From contig JAFKKG010000012.1 in the NCBI GenBank assembly GCA_017305715.1, positions 275,528 to 339,527 of the forward strand: 64,000 nucleotides of DNA. The letters are read 5' to 3'. The position numbers and the translations under genes are program-made. How positions within the stretch are numbered: the stretch's first letter is position 1; every line of letters begins with the position of its first letter. Shown piece after piece: positions 4,607 through 60,109 of the stretch. The notes below the pieces were generated by a model. That model did not search any database. It was given only the letters and a program-made list of their open reading frames with translations, and was not told the DNA's origin. Source of the DNA: Hyphomicrobiales bacterium (lineage in GTDB: Bacteria; Pseudomonadota; Alphaproteobacteria; Rhizobiales; Xanthobacteraceae).

Positions 4607-5584
4607 ATGAAACGCCCGCGTCAGCCCGGCAGATCCGCATCGGCAACGTCGCCCCGGCGCCTGTTGCAGGCGGTTGAGCCTGTCATCGCCGCTGCGACCC
4701 TCAAGCCCTCCCAGCTTCTGGCGCTGCAGGCGTTCGAGGTCGCGGTTCGGCTAGGAAGCTTCAAGGCTTCGGCGCAATCGCTCAATCTAAGTCCATCGGC
4801 TGTCAGCCACCGCATCCGCAAACTCGAGCAGGCGCTTGGCGTAGTGCTGTTTGCGCGCACGCATCGCGCGATCGAGCCGACTGCGGAGGGAAAGGCACTG
4901 GCGGCCGCAACCGGCCGGGCCTTTTCCGAACTCGCGCGGGTGGGATCGCCGGCCTTGGGCAGACCGGGCCGTCAAAGGCTCAGGCTCAAGGTGCTTCCGA
5001 TGTTCGGATCGGCGTGGCTCATTCCGCGGCTCGCCGGCTTCATGACGAAGCATCCGGACGTCGACCTTGCGATTGAAAGCTCCAGCCGCAATGTCGACTT
5101 CGACACCGAGGCGTTCGACGCCGGAATCAGTGTCGGAGACGGAAACTTTCAAGGCCTGACCGCTCACCACCTCGCCGAAATCAGAACCACGCCTGTTGCC
5201 GCGCCGGCGTTCGCGCGTCGTCTGAAGTTGCGTGAACCACGAGACCTCCGTCGCGCCGCGCTGATTCATGTGACGACGTTTCCGGCCGCCTGGCCGCTAT
5301 GGCTGAAGCATGCCGGCGTTCCCGAGCTCAAGCCGGTCAGGACGATCTCCGTCGATAGTTTTGTCGCGGCAATACAGGCAGCCGAGCAGGGGATCGGGGT
5401 TGCGCTCGGGCTGGAGCCGTTCATCATCGAGCGCGAACGTCTTGGTGCGATTTGCCGGCCGTTGCCCTTCGCGCATCCGACAGGGAGCTATTGGCTCGTC
5501 CATCCGCCGGGGGCGCAGCGCAATCGTGCGCTTCAGGTGTTCAAGCGCTGGCTGCTCAACGAACTGCCGGAGCAACGCGCTTGA
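4607..5584 (+). CDS. LysR-family transcriptional regulator (GcvA-like)
   Basis: A 325-residue regulator. The winged helix-turn-helix occupies about residues 35-95 (LLALQAFEVAVRLGSFKASA, then LSPSAVSHRIRKLEQALG and LFARTHRAIEPTAEGKAL). The effector-binding domain follows at about 115-320, with GcvA-type features such as WLIPRLAGF, FDAGISVGDG and ISVDSFVAAIQAAEQGIGVA. The N-terminus is about 30 residues longer than usual, so a start after 4607 is possible. It is divergent from the crotonase/Rieske operon and is its likely regulator through the palindrome at 4531-4559. Confidence 0.9.
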   Translation: MKRPRQPGRSASATSPRRLLQAVEPVIAAATLKPSQLLALQAFEVAVRLGSFKASAQSLNLSPSAVSHRIRKLEQALGVVLFARTHRAIEPTAEGKALAAATGRAFSELARVGSPALGRPGRQRLRLKVLPMFGSAWLIPRLAGFMTKHPDVDLAIESSSRNVDFDTEAFDAGISVGDGNFQGLTAHHLAEIRTTPVAAPAFARRLKLREPRDLRRAALIHVTTFPAAWPLWLKHAGVPELKPVRTISVDSFVAAIQAAEQGIGVALGLEPFIIERERLGAICRPLPFAHPTGSYWLVHPPGAQRNRALQVFKRWLLNELPEQRA

Positions 5585-5612
5585 TCGATGCGTTCCCGAT
5601 ATCCAGCGGCTG

Positions 5613-6392
5613 CTATCTCGCCGCCGGCGTCGCGTCGGCCGGCAGGCTCGCCAGCAGGGCGTGCAGCGTGCTCATGGTCGAATGATCGGCGACGCCGTCG
5701 ACGCGGGCCGGGCGGAAGTGGCGCTGGAAGGCGGTCACCACTTCCATGGTCGGGCCGTCGAACTTGCCGTGGGTCGGCACGCTGTAGCCGTAGCGGGAAA
5801 GCGCCGTCTGCAGGCCGGCGACGTCGTCACCGATGCTGCCGAGCTTCAGCGCTTCGCTGCGCACGATCGGCGCCGGCTGCACCCAATGGCCGACGCCGGA
5901 ATTGGCCAGCGAATGCCACGGGAATTTCTCGCCGGGATCCTTCTTGCGCCCCGGTGCCACGTCGGAATGCGCGAGTACGCGATGGGGGGCTACGTTGCGG
6001 CGGAGCATGATGCCGCGGCACAATGCGATCACGGCGGCGATCTGGCGCAGCGGGAACTCCGGATAGCCCCAATCGTGGCCACGATTGATGATCTCAACGC
6101 CGATCGAGCACGAATTGATGTCCTCTTCGCCGGCCCAGAACGACACGCCGGCATGCCAGGCGCGCTTGCTCTCGGGCACGCATTGCACGATGCGGCCGTC
6201 TTCCAGCACGATGTAGTGGGCCGATACGTCGGTTCCCGCGGTGCAGAGCTGGGCGATCGCGCCCTCCACATCCGGCATGCCGGTGTAGTGCAGCAGGATC
6301 ATGTCGGGCAAACGGCCCTTGTTGCGCTCGCCGAAATTCGCCGACGGGATCACGTCGGAAGCGATCGAGGAGTCCGGGGTAAAGGTCTGCAT
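5613..6392 (-). CDS. N-acetylmuramoyl-L-alanine amidase (amidase_2) with peptidoglycan-binding domain
   Basis: A 259-residue zinc amidase of the AmpD/AmiD type, which splits the bond between N-acetylmuramic acid and the stem peptide. Zinc ligands are H35 (MILLHYTG), H142 (VLAHSDVAPGRKKDPG) and D152 in the same stretch; E100 (SIGVEI) is the probable catalytic acid. A peptidoglycan_binding_1-like repeat follows at ~185-250 (LQTALSRYGY, FDGPTMEVVTAFQRHFRP). No signal peptide is evident with the start at 6392 (MQTFTPDSS); an earlier ATG at 6476 adds 28 residues without a better ribosome site. It converges with the LysR gene (28-bp gap) and lies directly upstream of the dcw cluster, on the opposite strand. 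Confidence 0.88.
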   Translation of the reverse strand: MQTFTPDSSIASDVIPSANFGERNKGRLPDMILLHYTGMPDVEGAIAQLCTAGTDVSAHYIVLEDGRIVQCVPESKRAWHAGVSFWAGEEDINSCSIGVEIINRGHDWGYPEFPLRQIAAVIALCRGIMLRRNVAPHRVLAHSDVAPGRKKDPGEKFPWHSLANSGVGHWVQPAPIVRSEALKLGSIGDDVAGLQTALSRYGYSVPTHGKFDGPTMEVVTAFQRHFRPARVDGVADHSTMSTLHALLASLPADATPAAR

Positions 6393-6995
6393 GTCCGCGT
6401 TGGCCCTGGGAACAGGAAGGGCGCGTTGACGCTTCGAATCAATACGAGCTGACGTGAACGAACCAGCAGCCATCATATAAGCTCAAACCGCGGAGGAGAA
6501 CGACTAACGCAAATTTTAGATAACAACGATCTTTACTATTCCTTTACCATGTCGTCCGCGCAATCCGGTAACCATGTCCGGTTTCGCATTTTGCCGGAGT
6601 GTGTGCGCCGGGCATCACCGCTTTGCAGCGAGCCGGGGCATCACGGCTGCGCAGCGAGCCGGGGCATCAATTGCTTCGCCAAGTGACGACAAAGCGCGCT
6701 AAAGCCGCATCAGATCATCAACGTTTTCTTAACGCTAAGTGCCGTTACTAAGTGATGAAAAGCCGAACCGGATTTGGGGGCGGCCGAGGCCCTCTTTCGC
6801 GTTCGAAATGCCATGGCAGCCCAGCAAATTCCGTCCGGAAAACAGCGGCTGCCGGCGCAGGCGGGGAGCGGCAGTCGCACCTCGCAGCGGTTTCTTGGCC
6901 GGAAAAGTCCGGCGAAGCGCAGAGATTTGAGGCGCAATGGGCCCGTTGGCGTCCAGTTTGTTTATCGTAGGTCGGGATACGCTGCAGGCCGGCGC
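6393..6995. other. Intergenic region upstream of the dcw cluster
   Basis: About 600 bp separate the amidase and rsmH starts. It must hold the divergent promoters, but no clear -35/-10 pair stands out. It contains an AT-rich stretch (about 6500-6560), the 26-bp tandem repeat at 6609-6669 and no mraZ gene. Open frames extending rsmH upstream into it lack family similarity. Confidence 0.6.
6609..6669. repeat. 26-bp tandem repeat, 2.3 copies
   Basis: Units 6609-6634 and 6635-6660 share GGGCATCAC and GCAGCGAGCC at matching positions, and a third partial copy begins GGGGCATCA at 6661. Only about four positions differ between the two full units. Confidence 0.7.
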
Positions 6996-52795: not shown

Positions 52796-53221
52796 ATGGC
52801 CAATTTCACTCCCGTTTCGGCTGCGATCGGCGGCGCGCTGATCGGTCTTTCCGCCGTGCTGTTGATGGTGTTGACCGGCCGGATCGCAGGCATCAGCGGC
52901 ATCTTCGCGGGGCTGCTGAACGTCCGGAGCGAAGACAAGGCCTGGCGTTTCGCCTTCCTTGCGGGGATGATGCTGGTTCCCGTCATCGCCGGATGGCTCG
53001 GTCATGGGATGGCGTCGCCCAGTCTGCCGGCGAGTTGGACGGTGATCGCTGTCGCGGGACTGCTGGTCGGATTTGGCACGCGGCTCGGCAGCGGCTGCAC
53101 TTCCGGTCATGGCATTTGCGGCATCGGCCGGCTCTCGATGCGCTCGATCGCGGCGACGGTCGTCTTCATGGTGACGGCGGTCGCAACCGTTGCGATCACC
53201 CGACACGTGGTGGGAGGGTGA
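52796..53221 (+). CDS. YeeE/YedE sulfur transporter, N-terminal half protein
   Basis: A 141-residue membrane protein with about four helices (GGALIGLSAVLLMVLTGRIA, AFLAGMMLVPVIAGWLG). The conserved Cys motif GSGCTSGHGICGIGRLS is that of the YeeE/YedE family, whose full-length members carry thiosulfate. Here the transporter is split into two genes, 3 bp apart, the arrangement sometimes called PmpA/PmpB. Substrates are expected to be reduced sulfur species. No sulfurtransferase or ArsR-type gene is adjacent. Confidence 0.87.
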   Translation: MANFTPVSAAIGGALIGLSAVLLMVLTGRIAGISGIFAGLLNVRSEDKAWRFAFLAGMMLVPVIAGWLGHGMASPSLPASWTVIAVAGLLVGFGTRLGSGCTSGHGICGIGRLSMRSIAATVVFMVTAVATVAITRHVVGG

Positions 53222-53224
53222 GCC

Positions 53225-53695
53225 ATGGAAATGGTCGCGCGGATCATCGCGCCGTTGCTGTGCGGTTTGGTCTTCGGAATGGGCCTGCTGATCTCCGGAA
53301 TGGTGCAGCCGACTAAGGTGCTCGGCTTCCTCGATGTCCTTGGCGCCTGGGATCCGAGCCTCGCCGTGGTGATGGCAGCGGCGCTCGCCGCCGCGGCACC
53401 CGGCTTCCTGCTGGCAAGGCGGCGCGCGGGGCCGGTGTTGGCCGGGCAGTATTTCTGGCCGGAAAAATCCGGGATCGATGCACCGCTGGTGCTGGGAGCA
53501 GGGCTGTTCGGAGTGGGGTGGGGGCTGGCCGGTCTATGCCCCGGGCCGGCGCTGGAGAGCCTGGCGACACTGTCGCCGGGCGTGATCGCCTTTGTCGCGG
53601 CGATGGCCGCCGGAATGGTTCTTCACGACAACTGGCGGGTGTCCCGACCGGTCGTCCGCCACGACGAGCCGATCGCGCGTGTGGCGGATGGGTAA
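53225..53695 (+). CDS. YeeE/YedE sulfur transporter, C-terminal half protein (DUF6691)
   Basis: A 156-residue membrane protein with four helices and the second conserved Cys motif GLAGLCPGPALESLA, preceded by GLVFGMGLLISGMVQPTKVL. Together with the upstream half (52796-53221) it would form the full YeeE-type pore with two cysteine sites. The genes are almost contiguous, so they must be co-translated. The tail is short and polar (RPVVRHDEPIARVADG). Confidence 0.87.
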   Translation: MEMVARIIAPLLCGLVFGMGLLISGMVQPTKVLGFLDVLGAWDPSLAVVMAAALAAAAPGFLLARRRAGPVLAGQYFWPEKSGIDAPLVLGAGLFGVGWGLAGLCPGPALESLATLSPGVIAFVAAMAAGMVLHDNWRVSRPVVRHDEPIARVADG

Positions 53696-53836
53696 CTGCT
53701 TGGGCCTAAATGATGGGCTGGAGGCCAATCGCTGTATCTTTGGACCAATGGCCGGCCCGGCAGACTTGGCGGGTACGGGTGCGCGGGCTATGTACGTCTG
53801 TCCAAGTCATGCTTTCAGATCATTGCCTGTGCGGAA

Positions 53837-54784
53837 ATGCGCGATATCAGGATAATCAAGAGCCGACATTTTCATAGACTGCAGCGCCGTCATTTCATCA
53901 TGTTCGATGTGCTGCCTTTTCTCGGCACGCTGGCCGCCCTCAGCCTGCTGTTCTACCGCCCGATCGGCTGGCTCGAGATCGGTCTGTTTTTCGGGATGTG
54001 GCTGCTCACTGGGCTTGGGCTCACCGTCGGTTATCATCGGCTGTTCACGCACCGCGCCTTCGCGACCTCCACGCCGATGAGCTGCCTGCTCATTGTCATG
54101 GGATCGATGGCAGGGCGCGGCCCGATGCTGTCGTGGGTCGCGATGCACCGGAGGCATCACGAGCTTGCCGATCACGAGGGCGATCTGCATTCACCCAATT
54201 TGCACGGCGATACCATGCTCGGCCGTCTGCGTGGTTTCCTGCACGCGCATTTGACCTGGATGATCGAGCACGATTATCCGAATGTCGCACACTACGTGCC
54301 TGATCTGCTGACGGAGCGGACGCTGGTTGCGGTGAACCGGTATTATTATGCGTGGGTGCTGCTGGGGCTGCTGATTCCCGCTGCTATCGGCGGTCTCGTG
54401 ACCGCAAGCCTGTGGGGCGCCATCGCCGGATTTCTCTGGGGCGGCGCCGTGCGCATGTTCGTGGTCGAGCAGTCGATGTCGGCGATCAACTCGTTGATGC
54501 ACATTTTCGGTGCGCGCCCGTATCGAACGCGCGACGACAACAGCCGCAATCTCGGCGTGATGGCGTGGCTCGCCTGGGGCGAGGGATGGCACAACAACCA
54601 CCACGCCTTTCCCTATTCGGCGGCATTCGGGTTGCGCTGGTTCGAGTTCGATCCCGGATATCTCTTCATCCGCCTGCTCGCAGCTTTGGGGCTGGCGTGG
54701 AACGTCAAGGTGCCCAGCCCCGAGAAGATCGCCCTGCGCAGGATGAATGGGCCCGCGCTTGCGGCGGCCGATCCACGTGGCTAG
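53837..54784 (+). CDS. Membrane fatty acid (acyl-CoA delta-9 type) desaturase
   Basis: A 315-residue integral-membrane di-iron desaturase. The three histidine boxes are intact: HRLFTHRAF (~70), HRRHHELAD with HSPNLHG (~105-120) and WHNNHHAFPYS (~255). Four hydrophobic spans fit the family, and no cytochrome b5 domain is present. It introduces a cis double bond into a long-chain acyl group. An alternative start exists at 53900 (MFDVLPFLG). It lies 54 bp upstream of the MBOAT gene on the same strand, which suggests a shared acyl-modification role. Confidence 0.9.
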   Translation: MRDIRIIKSRHFHRLQRRHFIMFDVLPFLGTLAALSLLFYRPIGWLEIGLFFGMWLLTGLGLTVGYHRLFTHRAFATSTPMSCLLIVMGSMAGRGPMLSWVAMHRRHHELADHEGDLHSPNLHGDTMLGRLRGFLHAHLTWMIEHDYPNVAHYVPDLLTERTLVAVNRYYYAWVLLGLLIPAAIGGLVTASLWGAIAGFLWGGAVRMFVVEQSMSAINSLMHIFGARPYRTRDDNSRNLGVMAWLAWGEGWHNNHHAFPYSAAFGLRWFEFDPGYLFIRLLAALGLAWNVKVPSPEKIALRRMNGPALAAADPRG

Positions 54785-54838
54785 TTTTCCGATCTCCGGG
54801 CTGCGGCGGAACTGGACCTTGCCCGGGCTCGCTGACTG

Positions 54839-56218
54839 ATGTTGTTCAACGCCTATCCGTTTCTGCTGGGCTTCCTGCCGGTCGCGATTTTGCTCTGCCG
54901 GCTTGCGGACCCTTATCCGCAGATGCGGATCTGGACGCTGGTGTTGCTGTCGCTGGCGTTCTATGCCTTCGGCAATCCGCCATTCATCCTGCTGCTGGTG
55001 CTGTCGATCCTGGTCAACTGGCTGGCGGCGCAGGCCTATGTCAGGACGAAGTGGTCCTTCATCGTCACGGCGGCGATCGTCGCCGATCTCGCCGTTCTCG
55101 CCTATTTCAAATACACGAACTTTCTCGGCTACAATCTCGGCCTGGTGCTGGGCCGGCCGATGCCGGTGCTCGACATCGTGTTGCCGCTCGGCATCTCGTT
55201 CTTCACGTTCCACCACATCATGTACCTGGTCGACCTGCGCAAGGGCAAAGCGCCGATCTATCCGCTCGGCCGCTACGCGCTCTACATCGCCTTCTTTCCA
55301 CAGGCGATCGCCGGGCCGCTGGCGCGGTGGTCGCAGGTCATGGAGCAGTTCGGCAGCAGGATCTATGCGCCGGGCTGGCAGCGCGAATTCTGCGTCGGCA
55401 TTTCCTTTATCGTGATGGGCCTGTTCGAGAAGGTGTTTCTGGCTGACCGGTTGGCGCGCATCGTCGATCCGATCTATGCCAGTGCCTTGCTCGGGCCGGT
55501 GGCAAACGGTGACGCCTGGCTGGCATTGAGCTTCAGCTTCCAGATATTGTTTGATTTTGCCGGTTATTCCGACATCGCCATCGGCCTCGGTTTCCTGTTC
55601 GGCGTCAAACTGCCGTTCAATTTCAACGCGCCGTTTCGCTCCACCAGCATTCAGGATTTCTGGCAGCGCTGGCACATCACCTTGATGCTGTTCCTGCGCG
55701 ATTACGTATTCTCCCGGATCGCCAACAGCCGGATTCTGCCGCGGCGTTTTCTTCCGCTGCAGTTTTTCATCGCGATGCTGGTGACGATGGCGCTGTGCGG
55801 CCTGTGGCACGGCGCAAGCTGGACTTTCGTGCTATGGGGTGTGCTGCATGGCTGTGCGCTCGTGGTCTGCGCGCTCTGGCGCCGCTATGGCCCGGCAATG
55901 CCCTCATTGCTCGGATGGGCATTGACGGTGGTGTTCGTATTGCTGACCGGTGTCATTTTCCGCGCCGGAAATCTGGACGCGGCCTGGCATATATTTCAGG
56001 GCCTTGCCGTTCCGCCCAATCCGGGGCGCGGGCACCTCGCGCCGGTCGTGATCGTGCCGCTGGTGGCTTTTCTGCTGCCGGCGAGCCAGGACATCATCGA
56101 GCGCCTGACGCGCCGGCCACGGCCCTGGCTCGCCGCCCTGGCCGGCATCGGGCTGCTGGCGCTATTGATCGAACTTGGAGAACGCAACGCCAATGGGTTT
56201 GCCTACTTCTACTTCTGA
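54839..56218 (+). CDS. MBOAT O-acyltransferase (AlgI/DltB-like)
   Basis: A 459-residue polytopic membrane acyltransferase. Family blocks: MLFNAYPFLLGFLPVAILLC at the N-terminus, KYTNFLGYN, LPLGISFFTFHHIMYLVDL, FPQAIAGPLARWSQ, FNAPFRSTSIQDFWQRWHIT and CGLWHGASWTFVLWGVLHG with the catalytic His (~323). AlgI moves acetyl groups to alginate and DltB moves D-alanyl groups from DltC to teichoic acid. The next gene overlaps by 26 bp and is a DltD/AlgJ-like partner; a carrier protein and AMP ligase are encoded opposite. Acyl export to a surface polymer is inferred. Confidence 0.92.
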   Translation: MLFNAYPFLLGFLPVAILLCRLADPYPQMRIWTLVLLSLAFYAFGNPPFILLLVLSILVNWLAAQAYVRTKWSFIVTAAIVADLAVLAYFKYTNFLGYNLGLVLGRPMPVLDIVLPLGISFFTFHHIMYLVDLRKGKAPIYPLGRYALYIAFFPQAIAGPLARWSQVMEQFGSRIYAPGWQREFCVGISFIVMGLFEKVFLADRLARIVDPIYASALLGPVANGDAWLALSFSFQILFDFAGYSDIAIGLGFLFGVKLPFNFNAPFRSTSIQDFWQRWHITLMLFLRDYVFSRIANSRILPRRFLPLQFFIAMLVTMALCGLWHGASWTFVLWGVLHGCALVVCALWRRYGPAMPSLLGWALTVVFVLLTGVIFRAGNLDAAWHIFQGLAVPPNPGRGHLAPVVIVPLVAFLLPASQDIIERLTRRPRPWLAALAGIGLLALLIELGERNANGFAYFYF

Positions 56219-57203
56219 TCGGCCGGATGAATGGGCCCGCAGCCTGGCGGCCTGCCTCGGCGCGCTCGGCATCGGCGCGTTGCTGTTGTTCATCGTGATG
56301 ATCGCGGTCGATCCCTACGATACCGGCAAGTTCGGCTGGCTCGGCATTGACGGCGTCGACGACCGCAACACGCATTTCGCGACGGCAAGCCGGGCCCGCG
56401 ATCCGCTGTTCGACTCGGCCGTGATCGGCAATTCGACGGCGCAAATGCTCGATCCGGCGCTGCTGTCGCGGGCGACCGGCCTGCGTTTTGTCCAACTCTA
56501 TCTGACCGGCGGATCTCCCCGCGAACAACTCGGCGCGCTCGGTGCCTTTCTGCGTTACCATCCACGGCCGGGCGCGCTGGTGTTCGTTGCGGATCCCTTC
56601 TGGTGCGTCCATCAGCGCGTGGAATACCCGGGAGACCGGTTCCCCCATTGGCTCTATGACGACAGCAAGCTTGCCTATGCGGCGCGGCTGTTGTCCTGGC
56701 CGGCGATCGAGCATGTGTCGCAGCGGATCGCGATCGGCCTGGGCTGGCGCAAGCGCAACGAACCGAATGGCTATTTCAGCTATGAGGATATCTGGCATCC
56801 GGGCGTGTTTCGGGCGACGAACGCGCCGAGGGATCCCGTGCTGGTGGAATCGGCCGCGGGCGGTGAAAATTTTCCCGAAATCGCGCTGCTCGACGCCACC
56901 ATCAAGCGGCTTCCGGCCAGCGTTTCAATTGTTCTGGTCGTGCCGCCGACTTTGTCCACGGTGATACCGAAGCCGGGCACGCCTGCGGGCGTGGTGCGCG
57001 AGGCCTGCAATGCCGCGCTGAAGCGCGTCGTGGCCGGTCGTCCGCGCAGCAACTTCATCAATTTTCGCATCGATAATGCGCTGACGCGCGATCCCGACAA
57101 TTTTGCGGACTTCATTCATTATCGCCCGCTCATCGCCGACAGGATGGCGGAAGGGATTGCCGACAGCATCAAGTTCGGCGAAGCCGCCAAGATCAATTTC
57201 TGA
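56193..57203 (+). CDS. Membrane-anchored SGNH-like partner of the MBOAT protein (AlgJ/DltD-like)
   Basis: A 336-residue protein with one N-terminal transmembrane segment (~24-45, LGALGIGALLLFIVMIAVDP) and a periplasmic SGNH-like domain. The nucleophile motif appears as AVIGNSTAQMLDP (GNS instead of GDS), and DNFADFIHYRPLIADRMAEG supplies a D-x2-H pair near the C-terminus. Such proteins finish the acyl transfer started by an MBOAT partner. The ATG at 56193 lies within the MBOAT 3' end (26-bp overlap), showing tight coupling; an upstream TTG at 56175 is less likely. Confidence 0.8.
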   Translation: MGLPTSTSDRPDEWARSLAACLGALGIGALLLFIVMIAVDPYDTGKFGWLGIDGVDDRNTHFATASRARDPLFDSAVIGNSTAQMLDPALLSRATGLRFVQLYLTGGSPREQLGALGAFLRYHPRPGALVFVADPFWCVHQRVEYPGDRFPHWLYDDSKLAYAARLLSWPAIEHVSQRIAIGLGWRKRNEPNGYFSYEDIWHPGVFRATNAPRDPVLVESAAGGENFPEIALLDATIKRLPASVSIVLVVPPTLSTVIPKPGTPAGVVREACNAALKRVVAGRPRSNFINFRIDNALTRDPDNFADFIHYRPLIADRMAEGIADSIKFGEAAKINF

Positions 57204-57215
57204 GATCATTTCTGA

Positions 57216-58934
57216 TCAGTCCGCGCCGGCGGCGAGATCCTCGAGGCGCCCTTCGAGCCACAATTTGCGCGCCAGGCTGCGCTGGATCTTGCCGCTGGTG
57301 GTCTTCGGCAATGTGCCGGGCCGGATCAGCACGATGTGCCGCGCGAACAACTCGTGCTGGTCGGTCACATTCTCGCGGATCAGCCCTTTCATTTCGACCG
57401 CATCGATCCGGTTGCGTTCGGTGCGTTCGATCTCCTGCACGATGACCAGCGTTTCCTCGCCGTGTTCGTCGACGGCGGCGAAGGCCGCACCGCCATTGGC
57501 GCGAAACGCCGGATGCGCCGCCTGCACGGTTCGTTCGATGTCCTGCGGATAGTGATTGATGCCCCTGACGATGATGAGGTCCTTGATCCGGCCGGTGACG
57601 TACAATTCACCTGTTGCGTCGAGGAAGCCGAGATCGCCGGTGCGCAGCCATCGTTCGCCGCCGTCTTCACCGATGATGCTGGCGTTGAGTGACGCCGCCG
57701 TGGCCTCCGGATTTTTCCAGTAGGTGCGGGCGACGTTCGGTCCGTTCACCCAGATTTCGCCGACCTGATGGGATGGCAGGCCCGTATGGTGATCAGGATC
57801 GACGATGGCAATCCGTTCATTGATCAGCGCGCGGCCGCAGCCAACGAGCGTTTGTGCGTCCGCTGCATCGCCGGGCGCGAGCGCCGAATGCGATTGAAGC
57901 CCGACGCTGCTGACGCTGCGCGTCACATGGCCTGCGCCACGGCTTCCGCCTGAGATCAGCAAGGTCGCCTCCGCCATGCCATAGGCGGGGAAGGCGGCAC
58001 CCGCATTGAAGCCGTGGCTCGCAAACGTCTCGATGAAGCGATCGATGGTTTCGGCGTGCACAGGTTCGGCGCCGTTCAGCGCGATCTTCCAGCAGGAGAG
58101 ATCGATGCCCTGCATCTGGTCGGCGCGATAGCGGCTGACGCAATGATCGTAGCCGAAATTCGGGCTGCAGCCGACCTCGGCGCGGTAATCATGGATCGCG
58201 CGCAGCCAGTTCAGCGGCCGCTGGGTGAAGGCGTTCGGCGCCATCAGCACGCACAGCGAACCGACATAGAGCGTCTGCAGCGCGTTCAGGATCAGGCCCA
58301 TGTCGTGGTAGAGCGGCACCCAGTTGACGTAGGTCGATTGTTTCGTGTTGCCGAGCGCGCAGCGGATCATTTCCAGATTGGCGAGCAGATTGGCGTGGCT
58401 GACGGCAACGCCCTTTGGCTCGGACGTGGAGCCCGAAGTGTATTGCAGGAACGCGATGTCCTGCGCCTGCGGCGCCGGCATGCCGGCGTGCGTTGCTTCG
58501 GCGGGCGAAAGGTCCACCGACAGCCATTGCAGGCCTTCGCGCAGGAAGCGCGCCTGCAAATCGCCGCGGACCGCGAACGCCGCACTGGTCAGTGCGACCG
58601 CCGGTTCGCAATTGGCGATGATCGCCGCACTGGAATCGCGCGAGCCTTGCCGGCGCGGCATCATCATGGGGACAGCGATGATTCCGGCGATCAGGCATCC
58701 GAAGAAAGCGACGATGAATTCGAGGCCGGGCGGGAACACGAGGAGGGCGCGCTCGCCGGGCCGGGCGATGCCGCTCAATTTTGCCGCGAGCGCGCCCGCG
58801 GCATCATGCAGTTGACGAAAGCTGAGGACCGCCTCCTCGGCGCCGCGATCGGACAGAAAGATGTAGGCGCGCTCATCGGGCTGGCTTTCAGCCCGCCTTG
58901 CGAGCAGTTCGACCAGCGAGGAGAACGGTTCCAT
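57216..58934 (-). CDS. Fatty acyl-AMP ligase (FAAL-type)
   Basis: A 572-residue adenylate-forming enzyme. Motif A3 LQYTSGSTSEPKGVAVSHAN is at ~162, VNWVPLYHDMGL, CSPNFGYDHCVSRY, AYGMAEATLLISGG and WLRTGDLGFL follow; the A10 lysine is in KTTSGKIQRS (~550). QYTSGST, the PNF-x-YD block and YGMAEATL-x-IS are typical of FAALs, which pass acyl-AMP to a carrier protein rather than to CoA. The gene follows the acyl carrier gene by 23 bp on the same strand, supporting this. Start 58934 (MEPFSSLVELLARRAE). It converges on the SGNH/MBOAT genes. Confidence 0.88.
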   Translation of the reverse strand: MEPFSSLVELLARRAESQPDERAYIFLSDRGAEEAVLSFRQLHDAAGALAAKLSGIARPGERALLVFPPGLEFIVAFFGCLIAGIIAVPMMMPRRQGSRDSSAAIIANCEPAVALTSAAFAVRGDLQARFLREGLQWLSVDLSPAEATHAGMPAPQAQDIAFLQYTSGSTSEPKGVAVSHANLLANLEMIRCALGNTKQSTYVNWVPLYHDMGLILNALQTLYVGSLCVLMAPNAFTQRPLNWLRAIHDYRAEVGCSPNFGYDHCVSRYRADQMQGIDLSCWKIALNGAEPVHAETIDRFIETFASHGFNAGAAFPAYGMAEATLLISGGSRGAGHVTRSVSSVGLQSHSALAPGDAADAQTLVGCGRALINERIAIVDPDHHTGLPSHQVGEIWVNGPNVARTYWKNPEATAASLNASIIGEDGGERWLRTGDLGFLDATGELYVTGRIKDLIIVRGINHYPQDIERTVQAAHPAFRANGGAAFAAVDEHGEETLVIVQEIERTERNRIDAVEMKGLIRENVTDQHELFARHIVLIRPGTLPKTTSGKIQRSLARKLWLEGRLEDLAAGAD

Positions 58935-58957
58935 ATCGGCCAACCAAGGCGCCGGCG

Positions 58958-59206
58958 TCAGGCCGCGGCCGCGCGCCGTTCGGCGAGGTGGCGGGACAAT
59001 TGGTCGATCGTTGGATAATCGTAGAAATCGTCGGTCGAGAGCTCGAGGCCGAGTTTTTCCTCCAGCTCCAGCATGACATAGACGACCATGGCGGAATCGA
59101 GCCCAAGGCGGCTGAACTTGGCGTCGGTCTTGACCTTGTCCGCTGCGATCCGCAGCACCTTGGCGAGTGAAGCCACGCAGAGTTCGGAAATTTCTTGTTG
59201 CGTCAT
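58958..59206 (-). CDS. Acyl carrier protein
   Basis: An 82-residue carrier protein. The phosphopantetheine attachment Ser is S38 in RLGLDSAMVVYVMLELEEKL; acidic helices and DDFYDYPTIDQLSRHLAERR fit the fold of polyketide/Dlt-type carriers rather than the fatty-acid AcpP. The start at 59206 (MTQQEISELC) follows GGGAAGATC. It is the first gene of a pair with the fatty acyl-AMP ligase, its probable loader. Confidence 0.92.
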   Translation of the reverse strand: MTQQEISELCVASLAKVLRIAADKVKTDAKFSRLGLDSAMVVYVMLELEEKLGLELSTDDFYDYPTIDQLSRHLAERRAAAA

Positions 59207-59323
59207 GATCTTCCCAGCCGAATGCAGGGCGACAATACGGGCGCATCGGCGGTTGTCAATTTGGCCGCTCGACCGGTGCATGGATGACCGCCATCGTCGG
59301 CGGATTGAGTGCCTGTTTGTGCG

Positions 59324-60109
59324 TCAATCCTGATAGGTGTACAGGCCGCGCGGCTGGTAATATTGCTGCTGCGGCTGGTAATAGCCCTGCGGCGCCGCCT
59401 GATAGCCGCGATAATATTGTTGCTGCGGCTGCGGATAGGCCTGGGCATCGTACAGGCGGCGGCCGCGCGGCGCCGGATAGCGCGCCTCGCTGGAACTGCC
59501 GTCGGCCGGATAGATATAGCCGTCATCGGCGCGAACCTGCGGCGCCAGGCGCGGCTGCGGCGCGAGCACGACGGGGTCGCCGGCGGCGGCATTGGTCTGC
59601 TGTTCGTATTGCTGCTGCGCCGGGGCGCGGCGCGCAACGGCCGTGTTGCCGCGCGGCCGCGGATTGCGCGCCAGCGCGACCCGGGACGAGCCGGTCAAGG
59701 TCACCGTGGTGTTGAGCACGCCTTCCTGCTGCACCAGCGCATAGAGCTTCGCGGCATTGTCGCGCGACAGCCGCACGCAGCCATGCGAAGCGGGCGAGCC
59801 GAGGCGGCCCACCGAATCGGTGCCGTGGATGGCATGGCCCTGCTTGGTGAAGAAAATCGAGTGCGGCATCGGCGCGTCGTCGAATTCCTTGGAGTAGTGG
59901 TCTTCCTCCATGCGGAAGGTGCGGAAGCTGCCATTCGGCGTCTCATAGGAGGGCAGGCCGCTCGATACCGGCCAGCGATAGCGCTCGACACCGTCGACGG
60001 CGACGGTCATCTGCTGGTTATCCTTGTCGACGGTGATGGCGACTTTGGCCTCTGCAGCGCCGGTGAAGGACAGCATCAGGCAGGTGGCGGCAACGAGGAA
60101 GGAACGCAT
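59324..60109 (-). CDS. L,D-transpeptidase (YkuD domain) with Gln/Tyr-rich tail
   Basis: A 261-residue exported enzyme forming 3-3 peptidoglycan cross-links or anchoring proteins. The signal peptide is MRSFLVAATCLMLSFTGAAE. The YkuD domain (~22-145) contains HAIHGTDSVGRLGSPASHGC; the catalytic HGC is at 109-111, followed by VRLS. The C-terminal third is low-complexity (QQQYEQQ, then YYQPQQQYYQPRG), unusual for the catalytic family and possibly a surface or interaction tail. Start 60109 gives a proper signal peptide. It lies 117 bp upstream of the acyl carrier gene. Confidence 0.9.
   Translation of the reverse strand: MRSFLVAATCLMLSFTGAAEAKVAITVDKDNQQMTVAVDGVERYRWPVSSGLPSYETPNGSFRTFRMEEDHYSKEFDDAPMPHSIFFTKQGHAIHGTDSVGRLGSPASHGCVRLSRDNAAKLYALVQQEGVLNTTVTLTGSSRVALARNPRPRGNTAVARRAPAQQQYEQQTNAAAGDPVVLAPQPRLAPQVRADDGYIYPADGSSSEARYPAPRGRRLYDAQAYPQPQQQYYRGYQAAPQGYYQPQQQYYQPRGLYTYQD

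Follow-up and report, generated by a model that had tools for sequence, protein, structure and literature searches.

In the known systems, MBOAT acyltransferases that work with an SGNH-fold partner transfer acetyl or D-alanyl groups, and a locus in a Hyphomicrobiales bacterium (GenBank contig JAFKKG010000012.1, positions 275,528 to 339,527) raises the question of whether such a pair can also be fed fatty chains by a dedicated ligase and carrier protein. We refer to this whole 64,000-nucleotide stretch as the window. At positions 53837 to 59206 it contains genes for a membrane desaturase, an MBOAT, an SGNH-fold protein, a ligase of the fatty acyl-AMP ligase (FAAL) type and an acyl carrier protein (ACP), which an earlier note on this DNA had read as one unit with Dlt-like logic. 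We conclude, with a probability of roughly 0.6, that these genes encode a carrier-fed, two-protein envelope acyltransferase for fatty chains.

A five-gene unit in two convergent sets

All five open reading frames were confirmed at the coordinates claimed earlier, in the two convergent sets described there. The plus strand encodes a membrane fatty acid desaturase of 315 amino acids (53837..54784; Pfam FA_desaturase, 72 bits; His boxes HRLFTH, HRRHH and HNNHH), an MBOAT acyltransferase of 459 amino acids (54839..56218; Pfam MBOAT, 67 bits; H279 and H324), of the PatA/AlgI type by these features and the tree, and a membrane-anchored SGNH-fold acyltransferase partner of 336 amino acids (56193..57203), recognized by its triad S81-D306-H309 and a predicted model. 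The minus strand encodes a FAAL-type ligase of 572 amino acids (57216..58934; Pfam AMP-binding, 208 bits, and a DIP2-like C-terminal domain, 54 bits) and a dedicated ACP of 82 amino acids (58958..59206; Pfam PP-binding, 59 bits), whose LGLDSA phosphopantetheine motif is also present in relatives. At its longest the ligase reading frame begins at 59246, and the ATG at 58934 is the start that matches relatives; the ACP start codon is the ATG at 59206. The ligase and ACP genes are separated by 23 nucleotides, and the convergent SGNH and ligase genes end 12 nucleotides apart. The MBOAT and SGNH genes overlap by 26 nucleotides, as previously noted, with the SGNH ATG at 56193. The SGNH gene thus starts inside the last MBOAT codons (56193-56218), so that codons of the MBOAT's C-terminal motif double, in another frame, as the SGNH N terminus. 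The same 26-nucleotide overlap is seen again in L121, L125, L041, L042, L044, L045 and L059.

Among 98 sampled genomes of the window's genus, the MBOAT is present in 15 at 68-100% identity, and the next best matches reach at most 45%. The same 15 genomes carry the ligase (70-100% identity, otherwise at most 42%), the desaturase (76-100%, otherwise at most 40%) and the SGNH protein (46-100%). Outside the 15, the latter is represented by a remnant at 38% identity, full of stops, in G096 and by one weak match in G035, and at those identities all four genes are absent from the other 83 genomes. The ACP is found in all 15 loci, that is, the window and 14 fetched relatives (62-92% identity in the 14), and the convergent arrangement is identical in every one of these relatives. 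Because four genes share the same 15 of 98 genomes and the ACP is present in all 15 loci, the association is more than chance, which supports the earlier proposal of a single unit. A sixteenth genome with the unit, G682, was found later in a family-level survey. The ligase surveys scored part of the candidates per genome (14 in the genus survey, five in the family survey and three in two others).

For the genes of the unit pN/pS, the ratio of nonsynonymous to synonymous differences per site, is below 1 in all 15 comparisons (five genes in three relatives; 0.11-0.62). The SGNH gene is the fastest (0.31-0.62) and the desaturase gene the slowest (0.11-0.26). Matches to all five genes are uninterrupted in the 15 fetched genus loci except for the desaturase of L131 (from G078), where the match at 5536-6470 consists of two overlapping, frameshift-like pieces; the other four genes of that locus match without interruption. 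Some ligase matches in the genus carried flagged stops, which at L131, where this was checked, are the gene's own end. In G096 the SGNH-gene remnant with its many stops (L135, 8480-9355) stands without the rest of the unit, from which it seems that the unit has been lost as well as gained. G048 has all five genes at another site (18 kb fetched), with none of the eight other window genes that were looked for; its unit is flanked by transporter genes and a phage-terminase-like gene. That locus (L125, 12662-15990) also encodes a second MBOAT, 33% identical and with the C-terminal sequence FIYFQF, followed by a 299-amino acid protein with no Pfam match.

The MBOAT, its shuttle motif and its SGNH partner

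The MBOAT ends in the hexapeptide FAYFYF (56198..56215), which corresponds to the FXYXXF acyl-shuttle motif described in passages of PMC12148441 and places the tyrosine at Tyr456. F454, Y456, F459, H279 and H324 are invariant in all 49 aligned MBOAT rows (L017 was excluded from the alignment). According to the same passages, PatA, an MBOAT, auto-acetylates the tyrosine of its C-terminal FXYXXF, and PatB, an SGNH protein, then receives the group, whereas DltB works with a carrier and a separate protein, DltX, that bears the motif; other MBOAT-SGNH systems are described there as carrier-less and acyl-CoA-using. A six-frame scan of 53640-59400 gave no separate DltX, the sole terminal FXYXXF being that of the MBOAT itself. 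The motif reads FIYNEF at the end of two DltX proteins and is missing from all five DltB proteins checked. The earlier note had given the MBOAT the role of DltB. Membership of the DltB family was rejected: unlike DltB the protein carries FXYXXF itself, and it scores 183.5 bits against a cut-off of 375 with the curated DltB model TIGR04091, about the same as other AlgI-type MBOATs; in 145 genomes of the phylum, other MBOATs score similarly and none exceeds the cut-off.

In DltB, DltC contacts Met302, Val305, Ile306, Met309 and Lys312 on helix HC, as well as Arg317, according to parts of PMC11035591. By alignment, the counterpart of this docking region in the window MBOAT is residues 280-323 (55676..55807), and the segment matching helix HC begins FSRIANSRILPRRF (residues 291-304). 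MBOATs linked to a ligase and carrier have clade-specific residues here and a longer span: H279 and H324 are 45-46 residues apart in all 24 linked proteins, 41 apart in 123 of 136 others and 48 apart in six of six DltB proteins. A Gly-Gly of the unlinked MBOATs is lost in the linked ones, Arg276 is replaced by Gln (Asn in DltB), and the residues at tunnel-gate positions 283 and 320 are unlike those of the others. These differences are consistent with ACP docking, though not proof of it. Just before the shuttle tyrosine, 21 of the 24 linked MBOATs have Ala or Val, whereas 129 of the 136 others have Ile or Leu; speculatively, this might help to accommodate a longer chain. In the tree a single branch (support 92/85) has every linked MBOAT on the same side; L212 is a long branch.

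Q276 is found in eight unlinked MBOATs, at least two of which (L272 and L281) adjoin a ligase. In these two loci from other proteobacteria (L281, 8937-15430; L272, 5246-10440) a shorter MBOAT lies beside AMP ligases, and L281 also has an ACP match; neighbouring genes in L281 are presumably a decarboxylase and a sulfotransferase gene. The two MBOATs are not close parallels, because they lack a terminal FXYXXF, and it is possible that the loci represent further carrier-fed MBOAT systems.

The partner protein has no Pfam family match. S81, D306 and H309 are invariant in all 41 aligned rows (the alignment is without L053, which has a stop in the stretch, and L076, L186, L141, L142 and L144). The predicted model (mean pLDDT 88) resembles SGNH enzymes, and by this model the protein is an SGNH-fold partner with a Ser-Asp-His triad. 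A Foldseek search with the model returned a single match with an E-value of at most 0.001, a platelet-activating-factor acetylhydrolase. A profile of the family found nothing among PDB sequences up to E 10, and hhalign gave it a probability of 0.6% against a three-row DltD profile.

Distribution, chain supply and competing explanations

Several observations weigh against a fatty-acyl supply to this MBOAT. In a scan with one genome per species, the 79 best loci of 582 confirmed MBOAT candidates (many with short flanks) show that in the wider family the MBOAT-SGNH pair is mostly without ligase and carrier: both adjoin the MBOAT in six of the 79 within the fetched flanks, five of them in Bradyrhizobium and one on an Acetobacteraceae contig. 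Linkage of the two pairs, as claimed previously, therefore stands within the genus (15 of 15 loci) but not in the wider family. A survey of 385 genomes of the class found the SGNH protein in 19, the window's included; 17 of the 18 others have an MBOAT match, with roughly 1 kb or less between it and the SGNH match in 16, and no FAAL match lies near the SGNH gene in any of the 18, such matches being on other contigs or about 220 kb away (G123). Conversely, among 248 genomes of the family, 14 have a strong FAAL match, with the MBOAT beside it in six (G000, G082, G682, G501, G544 and G633); in seven the FAAL-ACP pair occurs without this MBOAT nearby, and one, G603, could not be judged as its FAAL is on a 3-kb contig. 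The shared docking residues count as one event, since the linked MBOATs form one clade. A span of at least 44 residues also occurs in 10 of the 136 unlinked MBOATs, and with our own profiles neither a ligase nor an ACP match was found in any of nine scanned regions around them (that of L263 being only 4.1 kb), so a long docking segment alone was rejected as a mark of carrier use. F291 is not a DltB trait (Tyr in four of six DltB proteins). Finally, the eighth-best model for the ligase, at 312 bits, carries a CoA ligase name.

One alternative is that the MBOAT and SGNH proteins form an ordinary acetyl-CoA-dependent O-acetyltransferase of the PatAB or AlgIJ kind, with ligase, ACP and desaturase making a separate, co-travelling lipid. 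The nearest MBOAT relatives, 31 loci from Methylobacterium, Microvirga, Bosea and others (L045-L076 minus L051), have an SGNH match in 27 cases, and neither FAAL nor ACP was found in their fetched flanks, some of which are short. In Thalassospira, Pseudonocardia, Tistrella and others, cassettes of desaturase, ACP and FAAL stand without this MBOAT. Evidence against this alternative comes from the all-or-none inheritance in 15 of 98 genomes, from docking-segment residues unlike those of stand-alone relatives, and from the joining of the two pairs in three gene orders, two of which have all genes on the same strand. In the Acetobacteraceae contig the single-strand order is MBOAT-SGNH-ACP-FAAL. 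In G633 it is ACP-FAAL-MBOAT followed by a reading frame with GDS and DGH motifs and a sub-threshold GDSL match. Both orders outside the window's layout lack the desaturase. We therefore regard an independent acetyltransferase as unlikely. The distribution of stand-alone pairs makes it probable that MBOAT and SGNH formed the earlier unit, to which ligase and carrier were added.

In 23 of the 31 stand-alone loci a protein of 139-180 amino acids, which we take to be DksA, is encoded close to the MBOAT. In three loci of one genus where this MBOAT was not found nearby (L213:10065-11801, L214 and L215), FAAL and ACP adjoin a divergent gene, which in L213, the one scanned, has a WcbI polysaccharide domain; these loci are perhaps another FAAL-fed route of glycan acylation. 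Duplicate places in the collection are L040/L122, L043/L130, L175/L190 and L195/L212.

A second explanation is that a jamABC-like cassette builds an unusual chain, which the MBOAT-SGNH pair esterifies to a small glycan or metabolite to give a small secreted molecule. FAAL, desaturase and ACP together are the signature of the jamABC alkyne cassette in parts of PMC8406139, and in the window they lie within the 30 kb allowed by the rule given there, which first requires a JamB relative. In addition, a Streptomyces plasmid encodes a desaturase 41% identical to that of the window, within a cluster of three desaturases, a FAAL, an ACP, a hydrolase and a rubredoxin. Against a secreted product, a Pfam scan of ten window proteins (49.3-60.3 kb) gave no polyketide synthase, nonribosomal peptide synthetase, thioesterase or rubredoxin. 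The window desaturase also groups with desaturases of clusters that contain a cyclopropane-synthase-like methyltransferase (support a modest 85/70, with several long branches), which fits an ordinary internal double bond; the position of desaturases from a Streptomyces polyyne-like cluster is not resolved in this tree. On balance we consider a secreted small molecule improbable, at around the level of an outside chance.

The nearest solved relative of the desaturase is acyl-CoA desaturase 1. All 29 loci (26 distinct places) that hold a relative at 42% identity or above also have an ACP and a ligase match no more than 6.5 kb away; of 16 genus loci with relatives at 40% or less, none has either. 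Thalassospira and Pseudonocardia share a cassette in the order desaturase-ACP-methyltransferase-P450-hydrolase-FAAL. This split in neighbourhoods and the shared cassette suggest that this desaturase branch acts on a FAAL-loaded, ACP-bound chain. The stretches fetched for the four linked loci outside the genus (G501, G544, G633 and L044) showed no such desaturase; the enzyme is thus a matter of chain tailoring and not a requirement, and its place in the system, as first claimed, holds for the unit in the genus but is not obligatory elsewhere.

Since the gene logic is that of DltABCD, the ligase might load an amino acid or another short acid, making the system a Gram-negative relative of Dlt or Alm. 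The matches of the ligase speak against this. Its seven best NCBIfam models are FAAL models or a nonribosomal peptide synthetase/polyketide synthase model (519 to 340 bits, below their own cut-offs). The FAAL models score 418 (cut-off 775), 398 (cut-off 600) and 392 bits, compared with 159 bits for the amino-acid adenylation domain model, all of them below their own cut-offs. Among PDB structures it comes closest to FAALs or polyketide synthase FAAL domains. By a crude pattern, 41 residues follow YGMAE in the ligase and 18-19 in two non-FAAL ligases, about 22 extra. This supports the proposed ligase of fatty acyl-AMP type, as the neighbouring ACP supports the proposed dedicated carrier, and amino-acid loading seems very unlikely. 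Least credible of all is that the unit forms HoLA, in which the very long chain fatty acid of lipid A bears a hopanoid carboxylic acid: the hopanoid-attaching enzyme of Bradyrhizobium is given as unidentified in parts of PMC5613085 and the route requires transfer of an activated carboxylate to a lipid A hydroxyl, but HoLA is reported there from several Bradyrhizobium strains while only 15 of the 98 genomes sampled in the genus carry the unit, an Acetobacteraceae contig has the core genes too, and the route has no role for a desaturase.

Proposed mechanism, acceptor and known systems

For a carrier-fed fatty acyltransferase we propose the following steps. Judging from its family, the FAAL would adenylate a free fatty acid and load it onto the phosphopantetheine of the dedicated ACP, and in Bradyrhizobium the desaturase, judging from gene association, would add a double bond to the ACP-bound chain. 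The acyl-ACP would then dock at the cytoplasmic face of the MBOAT through the segment that is unlike that of stand-alone MBOATs, and catalysis by His324 may shift the acyl group onto Tyr456 of FAYFYF. By analogy with PatAB, the acyl-tyrosine would reach the SGNH protein to give an ester at Ser81, from which the acyl group would pass to a hydroxyl of an acceptor in the periplasm, most likely a glycan. A bolder version is that in a PatA-type MBOAT a dedicated fatty acyl-ACP has taken the place of acyl-CoA as donor, so that a long, desaturated chain crosses the inner membrane on the acyl-tyrosine shuttle and esterifies a periplasmic glycan, as a new class of envelope lipidation; this we offer tentatively, at clearly less than even odds.

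The nature of the acceptor is approached through neighbouring genes. Peptidoglycan had been suggested because an L,D-transpeptidase gene adjoins the unit. Of the 15 genus loci fetched, 13 have this gene, at a distance that varies; it was found neither at G048, which has the same five genes, nor at L134, nor in the fetched stretches of G501, G544, G633 and L044. As G048 keeps the five genes without their usual neighbours, the transpeptidase is probably outside the unit; it looks like chromosomal background, and the argument for peptidoglycan was rejected. In G501 and G544, of one genus, the ACP gene directly follows a gene for an NdvA/ChvA-type glucan exporter (904 and 909 bits, cut-off 733), which makes cyclic beta-glucan a candidate acceptor for the ACP-FAAL genes there. 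A glycosyltransferase gene lies upstream of the G633 unit, as do genes that resemble, below the cut-offs, GmhA and GmhB of heptose synthesis. Together these neighbours point weakly to glycans. In the window, a Pfam Sulf_transp and DUF6691 pair (52796-53695), presumably for YeeE/YedE-like sulfur transport, lies between a fused MFS/spermidine-synthase-like gene and the five-gene unit; the pair is present in the window and L121 and was undetected in the remaining genus loci compared.

No FAAL-fed MBOAT-SGNH system was described in the open-licence PMC papers searched, a scope that leaves aside subscription papers and preprints, and the main text of a FAAL review (PMC11837247) never mentions MBOAT. 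Passages of PMC12419801 describe SGNH and MBOAT genes in operon association with another family, ClaspCone-1. We read the locus as PatA/AlgI-type machinery combined with a Dlt-like, fatty-acyl supply, and we did not find this combination described. If a carrier-fed pair for fatty chains is indeed encoded here, the acyl-tyrosine shuttle would be able to carry hydrophobic chains, and the unit would open surface lipidation in plant-associated bacteria to genetic study. The stand-alone and carrier-fed relatives would provide a natural comparison for how an MBOAT chooses between CoA and ACP donors.

Four known systems share parts of this design. AlmEFG adds glycine to Vibrio lipid A, so that a ligase and carrier likewise feed acyl transfer in a Gram-negative envelope, but its donor is an amino acid and its transferase is not known to be an MBOAT-SGNH pair. 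The jamABC and other FAAL-desaturase-ACP cassettes also keep a FAAL, a membrane desaturase and an ACP together. Their acyl-ACP feeds polyketide or nonribosomal peptide synthases or polyyne synthesis (parts of PMC11837247 and PMC8406139), unlike the window cassette, which sits with an export acyltransferase pair. PatAB, AlgIJ and WssHI, all O-acetyltransferases, share with the window an MBOAT with a fused C-terminal FXYXXF, the invariant His and an SGNH partner, but not a pair that travels with a dedicated ligase and ACP. DltABCDX has a dedicated AMP ligase and carrier, an MBOAT, a membrane-anchored SGNH protein and an FXYXXF acyl-tyrosine motif, the latter in DltX. In contrast, the window has a ligase of FAAL type, an MBOAT far under the DltB cut-off with FXYXXF fused to its C terminus and no DltX, and a Gram-negative host. 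The fusion of FXYXXF to the MBOAT, together with the ligase and carrier genes, thus unites the shuttle of PatA with the supply side of Dlt.

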